Source: Akkermansiaceae bacterium (GTDB taxonomy: Bacteria > Verrucomicrobiota > Verrucomicrobiia > Verrucomicrobiales > Akkermansiaceae). From it: a stretch of 58,364 nt of DNA. The stretch is from assembly GCA_029242935.1 (NCBI GenBank), contig JAQWSX010000191.1:1-58364 (forward strand), written 5' to 3'. Shown here in pieces: positions 5,372 to 41,022 of this stretch. The number at the start of each line of letters is the position of its first letter. The stretch's first letter is position 1. The position numbers were made by a program, and so were the translations under genes. The notes beneath the pieces were generated by a model. The model was given only the letters and a program-made list of their open reading frames with translations, did no database searches and had not been told where the DNA came from.

Positions 5372-5740
5372 ATGGCACGACTCTTCGGCACAGACATTCC
5401 CAATGAGAAGCGTATTGAAGCCTCTCTCCCTTACATTTTCGGCATCGGACCCTCGACTGCTTCGAAGATTCTCGATCACGCAGGCGTTAGCCCTGACATT
5501 CGCACTGGTGAACTGAGCGAAGAACAGCTGGTGAAAATCGCAACGGTGATCCAAAATGAGGGAATCCTTATCGAAGGAGACCTTCGTCGTGAGAAGCAGG
5601 GCCAAATGAAGCGCCTGTCCTCTATCAACTGCTACCGTGGCATCCGTCACAAGCGTGGGCTTCCGGTCCGTGGTCAACGCACTCGCACAAACTCCCGCAC
5701 TCGCAAGGGTAAGCGCCGCACCGTTGGTGTTATGAACTAA
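5372..5740 (+). CDS. rpsM: 30S ribosomal protein S13
   Basis: S13 sits in the head of the 30S subunit and contacts 16S rRNA, the 50S subunit and the P-site tRNA. The 122-residue product has the usual length and signatures: MARLFGTDIPNEKRIEASL at the start, the helix-hairpin-helix region around YIFGIGPSTASKILDHAGV, and the basic C-terminal tail with RGIRHKRGLPVRGQRT and NSRTRKGKRRTVG. It is the first gene of an S13-S11-S4 block with gaps of 39 and 35 bases. There is no clear Shine-Dalgarno sequence directly before the ATG. Confidence 0.98.
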   Translation: MARLFGTDIPNEKRIEASLPYIFGIGPSTASKILDHAGVSPDIRTGELSEEQLVKIATVIQNEGILIEGDLRREKQGQMKRLSSINCYRGIRHKRGLPVRGQRTRTNSRTRKGKRRTVGVMN

Positions 5741-5779
5741 GGTCCTTGGTGACCTGAGACGACTTTCCATTCCATTAAT

Positions 5780-6406
5780 ATGGCTGAAGAAGAAAACAAA
5801 AATGAGGAGACCGAGGTCGAAGCTGCTGATGCAGTGACCCCTGCGGAAACTCCAGCCCCTGAGGCGGCTGCTGAAGAAGCAGCCCCAGAAGCCACCGATG
5901 CTCCAGCTGAAGGTGATGCTCCTGTTGAGGGTGAAAACACAGCCGAAGGCGAAGATGCCCCGGCACCGAAGGAAGAGAAGAAGCGCGATATTTTTGCGGA
6001 GCTTCTCGGAGAAGAGGATCCTGACAAGGTCAAGGTCCATAAGTCGAAAAAGAGCAAGAACGTGACCAAGGGGATCGTTCATGTTACTGCGACCTTCAAT
6101 AACACTACCGTCACAGTCACTGACGAGCGTGGAAACACTATCGGATGGTCTTCATCCGGAAAGATGGGTTTTAAGGGATCTCGTAAGAGCACCGCTTATG
6201 CCGCACAGGTTGTTTCCCAGGATGCTTGCCGTCAGGCGATGTCCCATGGCCTCAAACAGGTTTTGGTTCGCGTAAAGGGACCGGGGGCCGGACGTGAATC
6301 TGCTGTTCGTGCCGTGCAAGGTCTCGGTGTGGAAATTAGTGGGATTCGTGATGTTACTCCAATTCCTCATAACGGATGCCGTCCTAAGAAGGCGCGTCGT
6401 GTCTAA
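5780..6406 (+). CDS. rpsK: 30S ribosomal protein S11 with acidic N-terminal extension
   Basis: S11 lies on the platform of the 30S subunit near the mRNA exit channel. The C-terminal part, from about residue 87, is an ordinary S11: [19 protein letters not shown], then [20 protein letters not shown], and the C-terminal [20 protein letters not shown]. The product is 208 residues, about 80 longer than usual for this family. The extra N-terminus is dominated by Glu, Ala and Pro and ends in a short charged segment ([19 protein letters not shown]). The reading frame is open and continuous, and the ATG at 5780 is well placed 39 bases after rpsM, so the extension is probably translated. An internal start is possible but there is no ATG near the expected position. 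Confidence 0.95.
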
Positions 6407-6441
6407 TTCTTCTCAACCCTAAACTTTAGAAAGACAGATCA

Positions 6442-7053
6442 ATGGCACGTTATACCGGCCCAAAAGATAAAGTTAATCGTCGCTTCGGAGTGCCCCTTTT
6501 TGGGCCATCGAAAGCTCTCGAGCGTCGTAATTACCCTCCAGGTCCTCACGGACTCCGCTCCGGACGTCGTAAAAAGTCCGACTATGCAATCGCTCTCGGC
6601 GAGAAACAGAAACTCAAGTTCATCTATGGTGTTCTTGAGAAGCAGTTCCGTGGATACTTCGCGGAAGCCAGTCGCCGCCGTGGAATTACCGGCGACATCA
6701 TCTTGCTTCTTCTTGAGACTCGTCTCGACAATGTTTGCTACCGTCTTGGATTTGGAAATTCCAGGAACGCGGCTCGTCAGCTCGTCAACCACGGTCACGT
6801 GACTGTGAATGGCAAGAAGCTCGATATCCCGTCCTATCAGGTTCGCGCAGGGGACGTCATCAAGATTGGTGACCGCGCTTCGTCGCAACAGCTTGGACTT
6901 CGTATGCTTGACTTGACGCAGTCGGTTCCTCTTCAGGACTGGCTCACTTTAGATCGCGAGAAAATGGAAGGAACCGTCTCACGTCTCCCTGAGAAGGAAG
7001 ATGTCGACCCACCCGTTAATCTCCAGCTTATCGTTGAGCTTTACTCTCGTTAA
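6442..7053 (+). CDS. rpsD: 30S ribosomal protein S4
   Basis: S4 is a primary 16S rRNA binder that nucleates 30S assembly and in many bacteria represses its own operon. The 203-residue product begins MARYTGPKDKVNRRFGVPLF, has the N-terminal RRK-rich segment, and has an S4 RNA-binding domain around NARQLVNHGHVTVNGKKLDIPSYQVRAGD. It ends with the typical PVNLQLIVELYSR. It is the last gene of the block: a strong intrinsic terminator follows 18 bases after the stop. In most bacteria rpoA and rplQ come next; here they are missing. Confidence 0.98.
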   Translation: MARYTGPKDKVNRRFGVPLFGPSKALERRNYPPGPHGLRSGRRKKSDYAIALGEKQKLKFIYGVLEKQFRGYFAEASRRRGITGDIILLLLETRLDNVCYRLGFGNSRNAARQLVNHGHVTVNGKKLDIPSYQVRAGDVIKIGDRASSQQLGLRMLDLTQSVPLQDWLTLDREKMEGTVSRLPEKEDVDPPVNLQLIVELYSR

Positions 7054-7070
7054 AGTTCTTCGACCTTTTT

Positions 7071-7110
7071 AAGCTCCATTCCGTCTCGGCGGGATGGAGC
7101 TTTTTCTTTT
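7071..7110 (+). terminator. Intrinsic terminator after rpsD
   Basis: A perfect nine-base inverted repeat, AAGCTCCAT and ATGGAGCTT, is extended by an inner CCG/CGG around a short loop and runs straight into TTTTTCTTTT. It ends the S13-S11-S4 transcript and separates it from mtfA. Confidence 0.9.
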
Positions 7111-7209
7111 AGGATAGCGGAGCAGTATTTTGCGGTGGCGGTTATTTGAAGAAACAAACGCTCTAAAATTCTGTTCTTGTTCTGCCCCAGAATGCTCTAG
7201 CCTTGACCC

Positions 7210-8013
7210 ATGAATGGTGTTCTGTGGTTGGTTTGGCTGGCGGTGATTATCTGTATTGCCGTTTGGGCGTTTGGGAGCCAAAAACGGTTGAAGCAAAAAG
7301 CGCTGCTGGAGGCCGAGCCTTTGACTAATAAAGATCTTGGTTTTCTTGAGGATCACTTTGGCCTTTATAAGAAAATACCTCTTGAAATTCGAAATTGCTT
7401 GGAGCCCATAATTCAGGTTCTGATCGCCGAGAAGAATTTTGAAGCCTGTGGAAATCTTGATGAAATAAGTCGTGAAATGAAAGTGGTCGTGATGGCGCAA
7501 GCGGCTCTGCTTTTGGTTGGGCGTGATCACCGGTTCTTTTCAAAGCTGCGGACGGTTTTGATTTACCCAGAAGCCTTTTCTGGTGGTCGTAAGGATGGCG
7601 ACGAAACAGTCCGTTTGGGAGAAAGTTGGGAATCGGGTTCGGTGATTCTTTCGTGGCGCAGTGTTCAGCGGGGTGGCGAAGATGAACGTGACGGACGGAA
7701 TGTTGTCATTCATGAATTTGCGCACCAACTCGATCAAGAAAATCGTCACGCCGATGGATTGCCCCTACTAAAGAATCGAGATACGGTTGGGAATTGGGCC
7801 CACGCCTTTTCTGATGCTTATGAGGACTTTTGCCAGGATTTGGACAAAGGTCGTAAGACGGTGATGGATCCATATGGGGCTACGAATCCTGCCGAGTTTT
7901 TTTCGGTGGCGACCGAAACATTTTTTGAGAAAGCCAAACAACTGAAACGGGATTATCCTCAATTGTATCTCCAGTTAAAAAACTACTACGGGCTCGACCC
8001 TGTCGCTTGGTAG
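7210..8013 (+). CDS. mtfA: MtfA-type zinc peptidase (family M90)
   Basis: 267 residues, close to the length of E. coli MtfA (about 265). A hydrophobic N-terminal segment (about 4-23, VLWLVWLAVIICIAVWAFG) suggests membrane anchoring, which E. coli MtfA lacks. The zinc motif HEFAHQLDQ is near residue 165, followed by the helix with NPAEFFSVATETFFEKAKQL, which supplies the third ligand in this family. E. coli MtfA is a peptidase that also binds the repressor Mlc of glucose uptake; no Mlc or PTS genes are visible here, so a regulatory role cannot be inferred. It lies between the rpsD terminator and the convergent rlmH gene, so it is probably a single-gene unit. Confidence 0.85.
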   Translation: MNGVLWLVWLAVIICIAVWAFGSQKRLKQKALLEAEPLTNKDLGFLEDHFGLYKKIPLEIRNCLEPIIQVLIAEKNFEACGNLDEISREMKVVVMAQAALLLVGRDHRFFSKLRTVLIYPEAFSGGRKDGDETVRLGESWESGSVILSWRSVQRGGEDERDGRNVVIHEFAHQLDQENRHADGLPLLKNRDTVGNWAHAFSDAYEDFCQDLDKGRKTVMDPYGATNPAEFFSVATETFFEKAKQLKRDYPQLYLQLKNYYGLDPVAW

Positions 8014-31700: not shown

Positions 31701-32363
31701 TTACGCCCGGATTAACTCATCTGGAATTTCTGAGATTACACCATTAATTTCGGTGAAGAATCGATCTTTGCCTACGATTTTGAGGGGGTGGATTCCGGTG
31801 AATTCTGAAAAGGCGGGTAGGATGAGATGCTCTGAGTCCCGGAGAAAGAATCCGGCAACACGGAGTGATTGGCGCGATGATTCCTTGATCCGAACACCTG
31901 GGTGGAGGTGGCCTGCGATACCGTATGCGCCTACTGGGAGGTCGTCGGGTTCGTGGGTGACGATGAGCCCATCGACTTTCAGACATGGAGTGACCTCGAT
32001 TGGGAATCTATGACGGGAAAACCAAGCGCGCCGATCGTGGTTCCCTTCGGTCAGAATCACGGGCAAGTTAAGTAGTTGGAGCCACTCCTTAAATAATTCG
32101 ATCGTTGATAAACTCAGTCCATCGGCGGAGTGGAAGAGGTCTCCAGCAATCACGAGCTTTTTGGGCTTCTTTAAATCCGCCACATTTTTGAGTCGGCAGA
32201 GGTCGGAGGCGTTGGAACCCTCCGGCACAGCGAGGCCGCGTTCGCGAAAAGTGGCAGCTTTTCCCAAATGTATGTCGGCGACAATAAGTGATTCGGAAGC
32301 GGGTAAAAAAGCGGCTCGACCTGGAAGTAATTCCACCTTAATCGTGCCGAGAGAGATTTCCAT
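31701..32363 (-). CDS. pdeM: PdeM-like metallophosphoesterase
   Basis: 220 residues of the calcineurin-like phosphoesterase fold. The metal motifs are in order: VADIHLGKAATFRERG, VIAGDLFHSADG, ILTEGNHDRRAWF, VTHEPDD and AGHLHPGVRI. The combination matches the ligase-associated DNA damage response endonuclease PdeM, which usually sits in a cluster with an ATP-dependent DNA ligase and a DEXH helicase. Neither is nearby, so here it stands apart, only seven bases downstream of sufE on the same strand. A general phosphoesterase role cannot be excluded. Confidence 0.75.
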   Translation of the reverse strand: MEISLGTIKVELLPGRAAFLPASESLIVADIHLGKAATFRERGLAVPEGSNASDLCRLKNVADLKKPKKLVIAGDLFHSADGLSLSTIELFKEWLQLLNLPVILTEGNHDRRAWFSRHRFPIEVTPCLKVDGLIVTHEPDDLPVGAYGIAGHLHPGVRIKESSRQSLRVAGFFLRDSEHLILPAFSEFTGIHPLKIVGKDRFFTEINGVISEIPDELIRA

Positions 32364-32370
32364 GGGAGAA

Positions 32371-32787
32371 CTAGCCTTGGGTGGCGATTAGGGCGCCTTT
32401 TTTCATTTCGGCCGCCATCAAAGTGAGGGCGTTCGCACGAGTCGGAGCGAGATGCTCTTTGAGACCAGTTTTATCGATGAAGGAGAGATCTGCGGTGATG
32501 ACATCTTCGGGGGATTCACCATTAAGAACACGGACGAAGAGGGCGATCATCCCCTTAGTGATCACGGAGTCTGAATCAGCGAGATAGCTCATCTTGCCGT
32601 CTTGTGATGAGGAATCGAGCCAAACCTGAGATTGGCAGCCCTTGATGAGCCGGTCCGAGGTCTGCAGAGCCTCGTTCATCGGGGCTAATTTCTTGCCTAG
32701 GCCGATGACATATTCGTAGCGCTCCGTCCAATCTTGAAATAGATCGAGTTCGTCAAGGAGCTCTTGTTGTTTCTCGGTGATAGTCAC
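32371..32787 (-). CDS. sufE: SufE-type cysteine-desulfurase activator
   Basis: SufE accepts the persulfide sulfur from SufS and passes it to the Fe-S cluster assembly scaffold. The 138-residue protein has ELLDELDLFQDWTERYEYVI near the start and the persulfide-carrying cysteine in LIKGCQSQVWL (about residues 47-57). VITKGMIALFVRVLNGESPE and GLKEHLAPTRANAL are the conserved C-terminal elements. It lies 40 bases after sufS on the same strand. SufB, SufC and SufD are not in the window. Confidence 0.93.
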   Translation of the reverse strand: MTITEKQQELLDELDLFQDWTERYEYVIGLGKKLAPMNEALQTSDRLIKGCQSQVWLDSSSQDGKMSYLADSDSVITKGMIALFVRVLNGESPEDVITADLSFIDKTGLKEHLAPTRANALTLMAAEMKKGALIATQG

Positions 32788-32827: not shown

Positions 32828-34051
32828 TCAACGCAACATCATGAGGGCTTTTTTGAGCGCTTCACCGAACGACTCGACTTCCTCGAGAGTGTTATAGGCG
32901 GCGAAGGAAGCGCGGAGGGTTCCGGTCATGCCAAATCGGGCCATAAGTGGTTGGCAGCAGTGGTGTCCAGTACGGAGGGCAAATCCCATTTGGTCGAGTA
33001 GGGTGCCGAGATCGTAGTGATGAATCCCGTTAAAGTTGAAAGAGATTGCTCCGGTGCGGTCGTCAGGCCCATACAAGGTGATTTTGTCGAAGTCCGCGAG
33101 AATTTCAGCGGCTCGACGGATAAGTTTGTTTTCGTGGACGGTAATTTTGGCTATTCCCAAGTTATTCACATAGGCCAATGCCGTTGCCAAAGCGATCCCA
33201 CCTTCAATATTTGGAGTGCCAGCTTCGAATTTGAAGGGGGGCTCATTATAAGTGGTCTTCTCAAAAGTGACGTCTTTGATCATTTCGCCGCCTCCGCGCC
33301 AAGGAGGTAATTCGCAGAGTAAATCGTATTTACCGAAAAGGATGCCAACTCCGGTGGGTCCATAAACCTTATGCGCAGAAAAAGCGTAAAAGTCGCAATT
33401 AAGTAATTGGAGATCAATTGAAAAGTGAGGAACAGATTGTGCACCATCGACAAAGGTAAGGGCTCCAACTTTCCTTGCTTGTGAACAAATGTGAATAATA
33501 TTGTTCACAGTGCCGAAGGCGTTTGAAACATGGTTAACGGAGACTAGTTTTGTTTTTTCGGAGAGAAGCTGGTCGAAAATTTCAAGATCGAGCGTTCCAT
33601 CATCGAGGACCGGGATAATTTTCAGAGTTATTCCTAGTCGTTCACAAAGCATTTGCCAAGGCACGGTGTTAGAATGGTGTTCTAATCCCGAGACGATGAT
33701 TTCGTCGCCCGCTTTCAAGAGGTTGGATCTGCCGAGAGCGGAAGCGACTAGATTGATTGAATCTGTAGTGCCGGAAGTGAAAATGATTTCCTCGGGTCGG
33801 GTCGAGTTTAGGTGTTTCGCAATCGTTTCGCGGGCGGCTTCGTGTGCAGCGGTCGCGGCCTGAGACAGTTTGTGGACCCCGCGGTGGATATTGGAATTGA
33901 TTCTCTCGTAGTAATCTCGGGAGGAATCAAGGACGCAGAGCGGTTTTTGCGAAGTAGCCGCATTATCAAAATAAACGAGAGGTTTCCCGTTAATCTCCTG
34001 ATTGAGAATGGGGAAGTCAGACCGAATCTGATAAGGATCAAGCACACTCAC
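32828..34051 (-). CDS. sufS: Cysteine desulfurase
   Basis: SufS removes sulfur from cysteine to give alanine, using PLP, for Fe-S cluster assembly. From the chosen GTG at 34051 the product is 407 residues, the usual SufS length; the frame is open to an ATG at 34129, but those 26 codons do not look conserved. Landmarks: LVYFDNAATSQKPLCVLDSS, SGLEHHSNTVPWQMLCERLG, the PLP lysine in AFSAHKVYGPTGVGILFGKY, and the catalytic cysteine region RTGHHCCQPLMARFG. It is the first gene of a sufS-sufE-pdeM unit. Confidence 0.92.
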   Translation of the reverse strand: MSVLDPYQIRSDFPILNQEINGKPLVYFDNAATSQKPLCVLDSSRDYYERINSNIHRGVHKLSQAATAAHEAARETIAKHLNSTRPEEIIFTSGTTDSINLVASALGRSNLLKAGDEIIVSGLEHHSNTVPWQMLCERLGITLKIIPVLDDGTLDLEIFDQLLSEKTKLVSVNHVSNAFGTVNNIIHICSQARKVGALTFVDGAQSVPHFSIDLQLLNCDFYAFSAHKVYGPTGVGILFGKYDLLCELPPWRGGGEMIKDVTFEKTTYNEPPFKFEAGTPNIEGGIALATALAYVNNLGIAKITVHENKLIRRAAEILADFDKITLYGPDDRTGAISFNFNGIHHYDLGTLLDQMGFALRTGHHCCQPLMARFGMTGTLRASFAAYNTLEEVESFGEALKKALMMLR

Positions 34052-34184
34052 AGTCTTTCTGTAATCCCGCGAGGGCCATCCCGCAAGCGTTGGTGTCTTT
34101 AATGGTGGGTTCGGACCCTTTTTTAACAAGAATCAGCGTGAAAGATCTTCGAGTTTTCTGCTTTATCCATCGCTAATAGAGATT

Positions 34185-35582
34185 CTACGGTTTGCTTTTA
34201 AAAGAGGGAGTGAGATTTGCTGCGGCTTTGTGGGCCTTTTTGGTGTCGAGAGAGAGACCGGGGTCACCTTGGTCTTTGAGGTGTTGGTCAAGGATGGTGG
34301 AGAGCTTCTCTTTGATTTTGGTGTGGGTTGGATTGTTGGCTAGATTGGCCATTTCGTAATGGTCGTCATTGGTATGATACAATTCTTCGGCGGGGCGCTT
34401 CATGAATCGGTTGACAAGCATTTCGTGCTTGGGATTTGAGAAAGAGGAAAACACCCAGCTTGACCAGTAGGGATTGTGCTCTTGTTTGCCCATGAGATGT
34501 TTTTCAATGTAGAGCGAATTGTGTGAAAGGTTTCGAATGTAGCGCCACTTGCCATTGGTGACGGAGCGAATGGGATAAGTTGGACCTTCCGGAAAGTTGT
34601 TATGCATGCCGAAGGCATAGTTGCGGTGGTGAGATTCATCTCCCAAAAGGACACCTGCGAAACTGCTGCCATCGAATTTTTTCGGGGTGGATTCGGCGCC
34701 CGAGAGGTCAAGGAGAGTGGGGAGAATATCTGCGTATTGTACGATGGCGTTGGTGCGGCCGGGTGTGATTTTTTTAGGCCAACGGGCGACTAGTGAGGTG
34801 TGAAGGCCGTTGTCCCAATTCGTCCATTTGCAGCCAGGAAATTGAGCACCCTGCTCGCTGGTAAAGAGGACGAGTGTGTTGTCCGATTTTGTGGTTTCCT
34901 CGAGGAGAGCTAAGAGTTCGCCCACTTGGGAATCCATGTAGGTGATCTCAGCGAGGTAGTCAGCGTATTGCTGTCGGGTCATGGGTGTATCGGCAAGATA
35001 GGGAGGAAGTTTGATTTTTTCGGGTGGGTAAGCTGAAGCGTCACCCATGACCCACGGAGCGTGTGGTTCAGTAAGGGCCACGACAAGGCAGAATGGCTGA
35101 TCCGGATCTCGGGTGACAAATTCCTTACTCCCGGCGAGATCGTGTGGTTGGGTCGGGTTTCGGACACAATTTTGATCAAAACCAGGAATTTTTTCGAAGG
35201 GAAAAACTGACTTAGGTTTAACGTGAGTTTTTCCTGCGAGTCCGACGCGATAGCCTTGTGGCTTCAGGAGGTGAGGCATGCTTTGAGTGCCGGGACGGCA
35301 GGTACCGTGATTCCAAGCACAGCCATTTCGATGAGGATATCGACCGGTGTAGAGTTCGGAACGACATGGCGAGCACATTGCCATTCCTAGGTAGGCTCGA
35401 TTAAAGATAAGTGATTGTTTGGCGAAGGCATCTAGGCGCGGAGTTTTGGCATTCTGGCCGCCGTTTATTGGGAGGTCGCTGAAGGTGCAGTCATCGGCAA
35501 TAATGATGAGGATGTTGGGTTTTTGATCTGCCTTTAGAGAGACCGATAGACATAGGATGAAAGTGAGGAAGAATTGAAACAT
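34185..35582 (-). CDS. Secreted sulfatase
   Basis: 465 residues with signal peptide (FFLTFILCLSVSLKA). The fold begins KPNILIIIADDCTFSDLPIN (metal-binding DD) and the sulfatase signature CSPCRSELYTGRYPH is near residue 70; its first cysteine is the one converted to formylglycine. GLAGKTHVKP and a C-terminal ESTPKKFDGSSFAG follow. The enzyme should remove sulfate esters from polysaccharides or similar. Similarity is strongest to the branch including heparan N-sulfatase, but the substrate cannot be determined. It lies 22 bases after the NlpC/P60-like gene on the same strand and is probably co-transcribed with it. No maturase (anSME or FGE) is in the window. Confidence 0.88.
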   Translation of the reverse strand: MFQFFLTFILCLSVSLKADQKPNILIIIADDCTFSDLPINGGQNAKTPRLDAFAKQSLIFNRAYLGMAMCSPCRSELYTGRYPHRNGCAWNHGTCRPGTQSMPHLLKPQGYRVGLAGKTHVKPKSVFPFEKIPGFDQNCVRNPTQPHDLAGSKEFVTRDPDQPFCLVVALTEPHAPWVMGDASAYPPEKIKLPPYLADTPMTRQQYADYLAEITYMDSQVGELLALLEETTKSDNTLVLFTSEQGAQFPGCKWTNWDNGLHTSLVARWPKKITPGRTNAIVQYADILPTLLDLSGAESTPKKFDGSSFAGVLLGDESHHRNYAFGMHNNFPEGPTYPIRSVTNGKWRYIRNLSHNSLYIEKHLMGKQEHNPYWSSWVFSSFSNPKHEMLVNRFMKRPAEELYHTNDDHYEMANLANNPTHTKIKEKLSTILDQHLKDQGDPGLSLDTKKAHKAAANLTPSFKSKP

Positions 35583-35604: not shown

Positions 35605-36501
35605 CTAGCCGCGGATGAGGCGAATCACTTCATTGTTTTCGATGATGAAGTTGACGCGTGATTTCTCGATTTTACGAGAAACCGAAAAGGTTTTACCCTC
35701 TTGGGAAATGATCCGGGATTTCAGGCCTCGTTTTTCAGCAAGAGCGCGGGCCGCTTCGTAGGTGAGCTTGAGGTAAGCGTGATCCACTTTTTTGGCAGGT
35801 GTAGCTGGTCCTGACAGAGAGATGAGGCGTCCAGCGGCAATGGTGTTTTTAAGGTTTAGAGAGCCGAGCCGACTGTTTTTAAAACCATTAAGATTACCGT
35901 TTTTATCAGCGCTTAGCCAAATGTCGCCGGATCCGGCACCGGGGGTGTTTTTGGTGCGACTGTCGTTGGCATGGAGTCTGGTGGTGGAGTCGATGATGCG
36001 GACGCGGTAGAGGCCGTTTTTATCAAGCTTGGGAGTGCCGGCGATCATAAGGACGTGGCCGGTGCTTTTGCCTTTGACGATCTTGAGGCTTTTCCAAGCG
36101 AAGATGTCGCCGGGGAGGAGGTTGTTGATTTTGGTGATTTGCTTCCAAGAGCTCGCTTTGTGTTTATTTTGACCAGATTCGATGAAGGTTTCACAGAAGT
36201 TGGCCGCAAGAGGGCGGATTCGATTGGTAAAAGTCGGGCCATCCACGCGGAGATAGGCTTCGGGAAAATGGCGACGAAGAATGTGCCCGATTAGACCTGA
36301 GCAGTCGCAGTTCCAGACTCCCGATTTTTCGTCGATCTCGGTTTTGTGCTGATACCTTGAGGCTGTCATCTTGGCGAGGTGGGTCTCGAGAATTTTGGCG
36401 AATCGGGAGGAAGGGTTATTCGAAGCTTCTTTTGCTCCTGCGTGAGGAACCGCGATAAAGAGAAACAAGAGGGTAGAGGCGATGAAATTTTGATAGTTCA
36501 T
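35605..36501 (-). CDS. Exported NlpC/P60-like cysteine peptidase
   Basis: 298 residues from the ATG at 36501, whose ATGA overlaps the upstream gene's TGA; the frame is open further back but this start fits the signal peptide ([18 protein letters not shown]). The likely catalytic cysteine is in [20 protein letters not shown] and the histidine in [11 protein letters not shown], in the order and spacing typical of NlpC/P60 enzymes, which cut bonds such as D-Glu-diaminopimelate in peptidoglycan peptides. The C-terminal 80 residues ([20 protein letters not shown]) read as a separate small domain with an inhibitor-like tail ([14 protein letters not shown]). The family call is from the motif pattern only. 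Confidence 0.65.
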
Positions 36502-37286
36502 TCTCTTGATGCTTGGACGAAAGCTTTTAGCAGTTTTGCTTGCAGAGGATCTTTTTGGGCCATTTTTTCGGGATGCCATTGCACCCCGATGAGGAAGCGG
36601 TCAGGATCAGTTGTTTCGGTGGCTTCTACGATTCCGTTGGGGCTCTTGGCAACGAGTCTGAGCCCTTCGCCGAGGCGGCCGACCGCTTGATGATGAAGCG
36701 AGTTTACTTGCAGTTCTGTTTCGCCGAAGATTTTGCTGAGCCGCGAGCTGGGGTTAAGTGTGACCTGATGGGTGACTCCTCGATGATTCACGCCGAATTC
36801 AGATGGGATATCCTGAATCAAGGAGCCTCCGTGAGCGACGTTGATCCATTGGCTGCCCAAGCAAATTCCGAGCAAGGGTTTGTTGGTCTTTTTGATCCAA
36901 GCGGAGATGAGCGCTTTCTCGAAGAGGTAGCGATTCTTGTCGAGAATTTTGGTGGTGGGATGTGGTTCCTCGCCCCATTCCGAAGGGGGAATGTCAGCAC
37001 CTCCGGGCATGACCAGACCGTCGAGGAGTTCGAGGTATTCTGCGATCTTATCGGGTGACCCATCGCCGTTTGGGAGGACGATTGGAATTCCACCCGCCTC
37101 TTTAATGGCGAGAACATAGGTTTCGCTGGTGAGGCTGGCAATTCCGATAAGCGGGGCCTCGGACTTCTCCTCAGTGATGGGTGAGGAGGCCGGGGTTGGA
37201 TTGACGTTAGAGTTTTGACCGACAAAGAATCCGAGGCAGGCCGCAACGAGAATTGAGAGGGAAGTGAGGAAGCTGCGACGTGTCAT
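36498..37286 (-). CDS. Exported class I glutamine amidotransferase-like gamma-glutamyl hydrolase (family C26)
   Basis: 262 residues. The N-terminus [20 protein letters not shown] has a twin-arginine-like motif and a hydrophobic stretch, so this enzyme is exported, unlike cytoplasmic PuuD-type enzymes. The C26 features are complete: [20 protein letters not shown], nucleophile in [17 protein letters not shown], and the catalytic His-x-Glu in [11 protein letters not shown]. Enzymes of this group cleave gamma-glutamyl bonds, for example in gamma-glutamyl-GABA or folate polyglutamate. It is the first gene of the C26/NlpC/sulfatase operon; a joint role in processing gamma-glutamyl bonds outside the cytoplasm is inferred. 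Confidence 0.75.
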
Positions 37287-37572: not shown

Positions 37573-40500
37573 CTATTTGACAATTATTAGCAAATCACCG
37601 GTATCAGCAGCTTGGCCTTTCTTGAGAAGGATTTCATCGATCACTCCATCTGTCGAGGCACTCACAGTCGTGAGCATTTTCATGGCTTCTAGGACGACTA
37701 ACTTGTCGCCTTCCTTGACTTCGTCGCCAGGTTTCACAGCGACTTCGCTGATCATTCCGGGGAGTGGTGCGATGATATGCCGATCGTTGCCGGGATCTCC
37801 TTTGAGGTTGGCTGCGGACTCCTTGCCAAGAGCTTTGTCGACTACGACGCACTCGCGAGGCATACCATTGAGTTCGTAGAAAAGAGTGCGACGTCCTTCG
37901 TCATCGGGTTCACCGATAGAGATGAGCTTAATGAAGAGGGTCTTTCCTGGGCCGATGTCAACGTGGACTTCCTCGCCAACTTGTAGACCGTAAAAAAAAG
38001 CCGGAGTGGGTAAAACAGTGAGGCGGTCGTAGCTCTTCAGCGAATCCAGATAGTCTGAGAAGACTTGAGGATACATGAGATGACTGTAGAGATCGTCGTT
38101 GTTTGCGTCGCGATCGAGCTGATGGCTGAGTTCGGCCTTGGTTTGATCCAAGTCGCATGGGGGCGCGAGTTCACCGGGGCGGACGGTAACCGGAATCTTA
38201 TCTCCAAGCACGAGTTTCTGAATTTCCTTGGGCCATCCACCGTCGGGTTGTCCGAGACCACCACCGAGCATGTCGATGACACTTTCGGGGAAGTCGAGGT
38301 TGGGGGCGTTGCCGTTCAGGAGGTCTTTGGCTTTAAGGTCCTGCGTGACGAGAAGCATGGTCATGTCGCCAACCACTTTGGAAGAGGGGGTGACCTTCAC
38401 GATGTCGCCAAAGAGTTGGTTTACATCAGCGTAAGTGTGGGCGATTTCTTGCCAACGGTGGCCGAGTCCCATGCCATTGGCTTGTTCCTTGAGGTTGGTG
38501 TATTGACCGCCGGGCATTTCGTGGAGGTAAACCTCGGCGGTGCCACTCCGGGGAGCGGAGTAGAAGGGTTCGTAGTGAGTAAGAATTTTTTCCCAGTAAT
38601 CGGAGAACTCGTTGAGGCTTTCCACGTCGAGGCCGGGATCGCGCTCGTGGCCACCCATAGCGGCGCAAACCGAGTTGAGGTTCGGCTGGCTTGTCGAGCC
38701 AGACATCGAGGCTAGAGCCATGTCGGCGATGTCGACTCCAGCATCAGCGGCAGCCATGATGGAGGCGGCGTTGAGGCCGGAGGTGTCGTGAGTGTGGAAA
38801 TGGATGGGAATGCCGATTTCCTGTTTGAGTGTGGAAACAAGCTTGGTGACGGCGGCAGGATGACAGAGGCCAGCCATGTCTTTGATACAAAGAATATGTG
38901 CGCCCATTTTTTCCAACTCCTTGGCCTTATCGACGTAGTATTTAAGTGAATATTTGGCCCGGTTGGGGTTGGTGATGTCACCGGTGTAGCAGACGGCAGC
39001 TTCGCAGACAGATTTGCCGTGTTCGCGAACGGCTTCCATCGCGATCTGCATGTTCGGCAGATAGTTGAGGGAGTCGAAGATGCGAAAGATGTCCATGCCG
39101 GAGTCGGCTGCGTGCTTTACGAATCCAGCGACAACATTGTCAGGGTAGTTGGAGTAGCCAACGGCGTTCGATCCGCGGAATAGCATCTGGAAGCAAATGT
39201 TTGGGATGCGCTCGCGGAGTTCGTGAAGACGGTCCCAGGGGTCCTCTTTGAGAAAGCGCATCGCGGTGTCGAAGGTGGCCCCTCCCCACATTTCCATCGA
39301 GAAGAGATCAGGAGTTCTTTTCGCGTAAGCTTCTGCGATATTGAGCATGTCGAAGGTGCGCATGCGAGTGGCGATGAGCGACTGGTGGGCGTCGCGCATT
39401 GTGGTGTCGGTGCAGAGGAGGCGTTTCTGTTCGCCGATCCATCTAGAGAAGGCTTCGGGGCCTTGCTTAAGGAGGATTTCGCGGGAGGAAGGGGATGCCG
39501 GTGAGACGCCCTTGCTGCTTGGGATGCACGGTTGGGCGAAGGGTTTGGCGGGACGCCAGTTTTTAGCTCCTGGGTTGCCATTGACGGTGAGGTCAGAGAG
39601 GTAGTTGAGAAGTTTGGTTGCTCGGTCGCGTTTGGGGATGAAATTGAAGAGACTCGGCTGGGAATCGATGAGTTTGGTGTGTGCGTCACCTGATCGGAAG
39701 GTGGAATCTTCGATGACGTTTTCGAGGAAGGGGATGTTGGTTTTGACCCCTCGGATACGGAATTCTCGGAGGGCACGGTCCATGCGTTGGCAGGCGGTTT
39801 CGAAGTCACGGCCGGTGGCAGTGAGTTTGACGAGCATCGAGTCGTAGTAAGGGGTGATGACAGCTCCGGCGTCGCCGTTTCCGGAATCGAGTCGGATGCC
39901 GAATCCGGCGGCGGAGCGGTAGTTAGTGATGCGGCCGTAGTCAGGGGCGAATCCTTTTTCAGGGTCTTCTGTTGTGATACGGCATTGAATGGCGAAGCCG
40001 TTGCAGGGGATTTCTTCTTGGAGAGGGATTCCAATTTCGGGTTCGTGAAGTTTCTTGCCTTGTGCCACGAGAATCTGGGACCGGACAAGGTCGATGCCGG
40101 TGACACATTCCGTGACGGTGTGTTCGACCTGAATGCGCGGGTTCATTTCGATGAAGAACCATTCTTTTGAATCCATATCGTAGAGGAACTCGACAGTGCC
40201 GGCATTGTTGTAGCCGATGGATTGGGCGAGGTTGGCGGCGGATTGGCAAAGATCATGACGCAGGGTGCCTTCTAGGTCGATGGAGGGCGCGATTTCCACC
40301 ACTTTTTGGTAACGGCGTTGAACAGAGCAATCGCGTTCGTGGAGGTGGACAACATTGCCGTGTTGGTCTCCGAGGATTTGTACTTCGATGTGCTTAGCTC
40401 GCTTGATATAGCGTTCAAGGAAAACAGCGGGGTTGCCGAAGGCGTTTTGGGCTTCTTCTTGGGCTTCGGCGAGACGGGCCTGAAGTTCGGATGGCTTTTC

Positions 40501-41022
40501 AACGATTCGCATACCGCGACCGCCCCCACCGAATGCGGCCTTGATGATGAGAGGGAAACCGACCTCGTGTGCGACTGTGAGGGCTTGGTCGGGATCGGAA
40601 ATGGCGTCGTCGGTACCCGGAAGAACTGGAACTTTGGCTGCGATGGCTTGTGCGCGAGCAGCGGTTTTGTCGCCCATGGAGCCGAGGAGGTCGGCGGATG
40701 GCCCGATGAAGGTAATGCCTTCGCGTTGGCAGGCGCGTGCGAAGTCTGCATTTTCGGAGAGGAATCCGTAGCCGGGATGAATGAGAGTGACTCCTTTTGA
40801 TTTTGCGAGGGCGACAATACCTTCGTGGTCGAGGTAGGCACCGACGGGGCCTTTGGTGGTGTCGAGCTGGTAGGCTTCGTCAGCTTTGAAGCGATGTCGG
40901 GAGAAGCGATCTTCCTCGGCGTAGATTGCGACGGTGCGGAGCCCAAGTTCAGTGGCGGCGCGGAAGACGCGGATGGCGATTTCGCCACGGTTGGCGACGA
41001 GGAGTTTTTGTTGGATGGCCAT
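37573..41022 (-). CDS. pyc: Pyruvate carboxylase
   Basis: Pyruvate carboxylase makes oxaloacetate from pyruvate and bicarbonate with ATP and biotin, refilling the TCA cycle. The 1149-residue single-chain form has the biotin carboxylase domain (about 1-455: LLVANRGEIAIRVFRAATEL, GGGGRGMRIVEKPSE, EMNPRIQVEHTVTE), the carboxyltransferase domain (from about 530: LLCTDTTMRDAHQSLIATRM, CIKDMAGLCHP) and the biotinyl domain with the biotin lysine in VVLEAMKMLTTVSA. It is on the minus strand; valS is transcribed the other way. The ATG at 41022 is correctly placed for the conserved start. Confidence 0.96.
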   Translation of the reverse strand: MAIQQKLLVANRGEIAIRVFRAATELGLRTVAIYAEEDRFSRHRFKADEAYQLDTTKGPVGAYLDHEGIVALAKSKGVTLIHPGYGFLSENADFARACQREGITFIGPSADLLGSMGDKTAARAQAIAAKVPVLPGTDDAISDPDQALTVAHEVGFPLIIKAAFGGGGRGMRIVEKPSELQARLAEAQEEAQNAFGNPAVFLERYIKRAKHIEVQILGDQHGNVVHLHERDCSVQRRYQKVVEIAPSIDLEGTLRHDLCQSAANLAQSIGYNNAGTVEFLYDMDSKEWFFIEMNPRIQVEHTVTECVTGIDLVRSQILVAQGKKLHEPEIGIPLQEEIPCNGFAIQCRITTEDPEKGFAPDYGRITNYRSAAGFGIRLDSGNGDAGAVITPYYDSMLVKLTATGRDFETACQRMDRALREFRIRGVKTNIPFLENVIEDSTFRSGDAHTKLIDSQPSLFNFIPKRDRATKLLNYLSDLTVNGNPGAKNWRPAKPFAQPCIPSSKGVSPASPSSREILLKQGPEAFSRWIGEQKRLLCTDTTMRDAHQSLIATRMRTFDMLNIAEAYAKRTPDLFSMEMWGGATFDTAMRFLKEDPWDRLHELRERIPNICFQMLFRGSNAVGYSNYPDNVVAGFVKHAADSGMDIFRIFDSLNYLPNMQIAMEAVREHGKSVCEAAVCYTGDITNPNRAKYSLKYYVDKAKELEKMGAHILCIKDMAGLCHPAAVTKLVSTLKQEIGIPIHFHTHDTSGLNAASIMAAADAGVDIADMALASMSGSTSQPNLNSVCAAMGGHERDPGLDVESLNEFSDYWEKILTHYEPFYSAPRSGTAEVYLHEMPGGQYTNLKEQANGMGLGHRWQEIAHTYADVNQLFGDIVKVTPSSKVVGDMTMLLVTQDLKAKDLLNGNAPNLDFPESVIDMLGGGLGQPDGGWPKEIQKLVLGDKIPVTVRPGELAPPCDLDQTKAELSHQLDRDANNDDLYSHLMYPQVFSDYLDSLKSYDRLTVLPTPAFFYGLQVGEEVHVDIGPGKTLFIKLISIGEPDDEGRRTLFYELNGMPRECVVVDKALGKESAANLKGDPGNDRHIIAPLPGMISEVAVKPGDEVKEGDKLVVLEAMKMLTTVSASTDGVIDEILLKKGQAADTGDLLIIVK

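Follow-up and report, generated by a model that had tools for sequence, protein, structure and literature searches.

Three adjacent genes for a C26 gamma-glutamyl hydrolase, an NlpC/P60-like protein and a sulfatase in an Akkermansiaceae bacterium are probably independent neighbours

Introduction

Hydrolases of the C26 family (PF07722), among them PuuD (PDB 6vtv) and Lin1909 (3fij), carry a Cys-His-Glu catalytic triad, and the eukaryotic enzyme of this type, gamma-glutamyl hydrolase, is lysosomal or secreted. In the NlpC/P60 and CHAP cysteine hydrolases, such as Trichomonas NlpC2 (TvNlpC2, 6biq) and the C. difficile autolysin Acd24020 (7cfl), a helix starts at the Cys and the His lies on the next strand. 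NlpC/P60 enzymes cleave gamma-D-glutamyl bonds, while the known C26 enzymes cleave gamma-L-glutamyl ones. The potato inhibitor I / I78 proteins CI-2, eglin c and AFUEI are also relevant to the locus described here. Finally, marine Verrucomicrobiota including Akkermansiaceae use sulfated glycans and have a high sulfatase content, according to one report (PMC8857213), whose sections consulted here describe no C26/NlpC/sulfatase trio.

The window, i.e. the whole stretch of 58,364 nucleotides of Akkermansiaceae DNA that was analyzed, contains a C26 gene, an NlpC/P60-like gene and a sulfatase gene in immediate succession, and its genome shares the high sulfatase content. A sequence-only reading of the window had proposed a functional unit made up of all three. 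The comparison with relatives reported here indicates that they are probably ordinary independent neighbours with no new enzyme pathway behind them, and that the NlpC-like gene is dispensable in sister species.

Results

The C26-type gamma-glutamyl hydrolase (262 aa) is encoded at 36498..37286 on the minus strand and the NlpC/P60-like protein (298 aa) at 35605..36501 on the same strand. The TGA of the former (36500-36498) overlaps the ATG of the latter (36501-36499) in an ATGA sequence at 36498..36501 (minus strand), and the ATG of a S1-type sulfatase (465 aa, 34185..35582, minus strand) lies 22 bases past the TAG of the NlpC-like gene. The original reading of the frames, of their overlap and of the gap was thus confirmed. 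A mechanical ORF list places the NlpC-like start further upstream, inside the C26 gene, giving 324 aa; the ATGA start is plausible and was preferred because a signal peptide comes right after it. Upstream of the C26 gene lies a pyruvate carboxylase-type gene (37573..41022, minus strand), identified by profile match and neighbourhood comparison. The sulfatase is followed by a SufS-like cysteine desulfurase gene (32828..34129, minus strand, profile match) and by SufE-like (32371-32787) and phosphoesterase-like (31701-32363) genes, both named by inspection; all three belong to a conserved block.

The assignment of the first protein to the C26 family was confirmed by a PF07722 match over residues 51-240 (E 2.6e-56; 191.3 bits against a curated cut-off of 20.5), by its PDB relatives Lin1909 (2.9e-34) and PuuD (2.3e-23) and by an intact triad, with C142 in GICLGSQ and H238 and E240 in WHPEK. 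The protein differs from PuuD in bearing an N-terminal Tat-like signal or anchor, and it is not PuuD proper, since it scored 90.3 bits on the PuuD equivalog NF008471, far below the cut-off of 266. A signal or anchor was present in 17/17 C26 orthologues, mostly in the form of RRxx[L/I/V], a hydrophobic stretch and GFxxG in succession. The Tat-like signal originally noted was therefore borne out as regards export or anchoring but only in part as regards the twin arginine, which is RR in 12/17 orthologues, HR in 4/17 (including two sister species) and neither in 1/17; one of the four HR proteins (G251) looks lipoprotein-like, and an orthologue outside these four, that of G346, has a plain signal peptide. 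Predicted export or anchoring thus appears conserved across the 17 orthologues, while use of the Tat route does not. A lipobox reading of the window protein (VAAC17) was rejected, the Cys not being conserved among orthologues. It had also been remarked that C26 enzymes are usually cytoplasmic; this loses force as a surprise, as other verrucomicrobial families too have signal-bearing C26 proteins. On the basis of its family, its triad and its signal, we infer a membrane-anchored or exported gamma-glutamyl amide hydrolase that would act outside the cytoplasm.

The second protein carries a Sec-type signal (residues ~1-23) and a candidate nucleophile, C67. It returned no significant sequence match in Pfam (including PF00877, NlpC/P60), NCBIfam or PDB, and no more than weak hits in PHROGs. 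Matches of its family members to Amidase_6, NLPC_P60 and CHAP are for the most part marginal, the best E values being 0.0059, 0.024 and 6.9e-05 in that order. In an alignment of 13 family proteins, with homologues at 24-40% identity, D66-C67, G148-H149, D171 and H177 are invariant; the putative catalytic codons are those of Cys67 (36301..36303, minus strand) and His149 (36055..36057, minus strand). The predicted structure had a mean pLDDT of 77, with the catalytic core mostly at 80-95. C67 opens a helix, H149 opens the strand 148-153 and D171 lies on a subsequent strand. The best structural alignment was with TvNlpC2 (VIA Z 12.0, 129 residues), followed by Acd24020 (Z 11.4), and the further high-ranking matches were mostly NlpC/P60, CHAP or amidase domains. 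The model thus supports a papain-like NlpC/P60 fold, which differs from the described hydrolases in having an invariant Asp as third polar residue and in its long insertions. The earlier description of the protein as exported and NlpC/P60-like holds on predicted fold, Cys and His positions and Sec signal; of the profile models proposed for checking it, PF07722 matched the C26 protein but NlpC/P60 Pfam models left the second protein unmatched. We take it to be an exported papain-fold hydrolase from an unannotated NlpC/P60-like family, and probably a peptidoglycan or peptide amidase.

The distribution of this family is patchy (9/288 genomes of the phylum). A contig scan with the single protein returned one named relative, on a contig from a Verrucomicrobiia MAG (L134). 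Apart from the window protein, this relative and that of G432 (L100) alone are full-length and have the C-terminal domain; the G432 gene sits among unrelated, ordinary chromosomal genes. Two further arrangements were also seen. In a distant relative, at L139:2893-4554 (G086), an NlpC-like domain is fused behind what appears, by inspection, to be an alpha/beta-hydrolase domain. At L136, ~5740-7350 on the minus strand (G053), a sulfatase-like C-terminal end (weak match, E 0.006) appears to continue in frame as an NlpC-like domain up to a frameshift, and this run seems to be a decaying gene or an assembly error.

The original account of the second protein did not include its C-terminal domain (residues 240-298; 35608..35784, minus strand). 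Modelled separately, these residues reached a pLDDT of 91, and the 50 Foldseek matches listed were all CI-2, eglin c or related potato-inhibitor-I proteins, with probability ~1.0 and TM 0.6-0.7. Fold comparison alone made this link: sequence profiles connected the module to no solved structure, and the I78 Pfam model matched weakly in two relatives (best E 0.004) and not in the window module. The predicted fold is shared with CI-2, eglin c and AFUEI, but identity is 10-20%, the reactive-site loop differs and the window domain is fused to a cysteine-hydrolase domain. In its reactive-loop residues the window copy also departs from the consensus of the module. The literature searched yielded no description of an NlpC-inhibitor fusion or of an exported C26 enzyme.

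The fate of the NlpC-like gene was then read from sister species. Four sister genomes of the genus keep the block of pyruvate carboxylase, C26, sulfatase, SufS, SufE and phosphoesterase to the extent that their contigs cover it; the assemblies compared are mostly fragmented, and the junctions used lie within single contigs. In G482 the contig stops within the NlpC-like gene. At all three readable junctions the gene is lost or pseudogenised, with C26 and sulfatase intact (C26 identity to the window 85%, 82% and 84% in G501, G478 and G477; sulfatase 88-90%). In G477 it is wholly deleted, about the first five codons being left ahead of the sulfatase; in G501 a pseudogene is left, frameshifted and shortened by an internal deletion, with Tyr in place of Cys67 (NCDYSGL); in G478 the gene has no start codon and is mostly deleted. 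Because these deletions are nested, one, two or three events may account for them. The ATGA overlap is also present above the G501 pseudogene and is therefore older than the decay. The remnants evolve neutrally, with a dN/dS of 1.26 between G501 and G478, two species whose C26 genes give 0.19; sulfatase values within the species group are 0.06-0.08. These ratios, together with the deletions, demonstrate that C26 and sulfatase have been kept and the NlpC-like gene has not. In the window species the copy is intact and retains the putative catalytic residues, and its dispensability there is suggested by the losses seen in the sisters.

Outside the block, none of 13 C26 orthologues from this genus and two other genera (57-64% identity, one 81%) has an NlpC neighbour, and all 17 other NlpC-family loci likewise lack a C26 gene next to them. 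Together with the three sister junctions, these counts show that the C26-NlpC adjacency, which had been proposed as a check on the functional link, is not conserved, and on that check the link fails. In G178, of another genus, a pyruvate carboxylase gene immediately precedes C26, and in G352 a few genes separate the two (L110, L117); judged from gene order, the pyruvate carboxylase-C26 association appears to be older than the trio and to outlast it.

The window sulfatase was verified by PF00884 (E 5.9e-43), SGSH_C (3.2e-12) and the CxPxR motif in CSPCRSELYTG, and carries a signal peptide. Its genome encodes ~66 sulfatases, so that one adjacent sulfatase is unremarkable and weak evidence; relatives in the genus have 54 to >90, the higher counts being lower bounds, or an estimated 2-3% or so of genes. 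C26 stands beside a sulfatase in three separate contexts of the genus, with the sulfatase downstream in the window block and upstream in G496 and in G487/G494, and in G490 the two are one gene removed. The sulfatases of different C26 contexts share ~21-28% identity. In other species of the genus, the C26 orthologues at L112, L113, L114 and L116 lie beside unrelated sulfatases on the same strand, one gene apart in L116.

Discussion

The overlapping genes and their matching themes hinted at a pathway, and the relatives give a clean negative. We consider it probable that the three genes are independent members of a co-oriented, mostly housekeeping run (pyruvate carboxylase, C26, NlpC-like, sulfatase, SufS, SufE), in which C26 would be a conserved gamma-glutamyl amide hydrolase, anchored or exported, that acts outside the cytoplasm, the NlpC-like protein an exported papain-fold hydrolase with a CI-2-like C-terminus that is lost or decaying in sister species, and the sulfatase one among many in the genome. 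Translation of the NlpC-like gene may be coupled to that of C26 in the window species, which would not imply a joint pathway. The functional unit first proposed, in which C26 and the NlpC-like enzyme would degrade a gamma-glutamyl polymer or muropeptide outside the cytoplasm and the sulfatase would desulfate an associated polysaccharide, is very unlikely. The gene overlap, also seen above the G501 remnant, the export of all three products and the ability of both hydrolase classes to act on gamma-glutamyl-type bonds speak for it; against it, the NlpC-like gene is deleted or a pseudogene at every readable sister junction while its neighbours persist, and the C26-NlpC pair occurs nowhere else among the loci examined. 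The difference between gamma-D- and gamma-L-glutamyl specificity, known for the two families, also means that a shared bond is not implied. A link between C26 and NlpC special to the window species is conceivable, given the intact copy there with its putative catalytic residues.

Another proposal is an anchored C26 hydrolase, recurrently found beside sulfatases in this genus, whose targets during sulfated-glycan use would be glycopeptide or amide side groups. The three unrelated genus contexts with their dissimilar sulfatases are consistent with it, and a rough binomial estimate (3/5 genus contexts at 6% per gene) gives P ~0.002, the base rate being derived roughly from sulfatase counts. Yet the numbers are small, orientation is not conserved, and neither G488 and G484 nor any of the other genera that were examined show the adjacency; over all 11 contexts P is 0.008-0.05. 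The adjacency is somewhat beyond chance in the genus, a lead rather than a result, and we regard the functional proposal as improbable. Somewhat less doubtful, if still unlikely, is a bacteriolytic or protective role for the NlpC/CI-2-like protein, as a cell-wall hydrolase with an inhibitor-like domain that is gained and lost. Bacteriolytic and protective factors often have genes with such a history, and the signal peptide, nearest folds among autolysins, endolysins and secreted amidases, the scattered occurrence in the phylum and the quick loss in sisters all fit, but no toxin or immunity neighbour was recognised at the locus and the G432 relative lies in an ordinary chromosomal setting. This role concerns the NlpC-like gene alone and is compatible with independent neighbours, the explanation that we prefer. 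That the protein is a secreted cell-wall hydrolase whose own CI-2-like domain inhibits serine proteases, and so protects it against extracellular proteases, is a long shot suggested by the modelled fold.

The C-terminal module extends beyond this locus. A module of ~57 residues (GLTxEEA...RVVxxDG...VTxDYRPxRLNFxxExGKVxRV) is common in Akkermansiaceae proteins, often small and lipoprotein-like, and besides the window copy it was found at L013, L014, L057, L058 and L061-L064, with no significant Pfam match. The predicted CI-2 fold of this unannotated module of many proteins can now be tested for inhibition.
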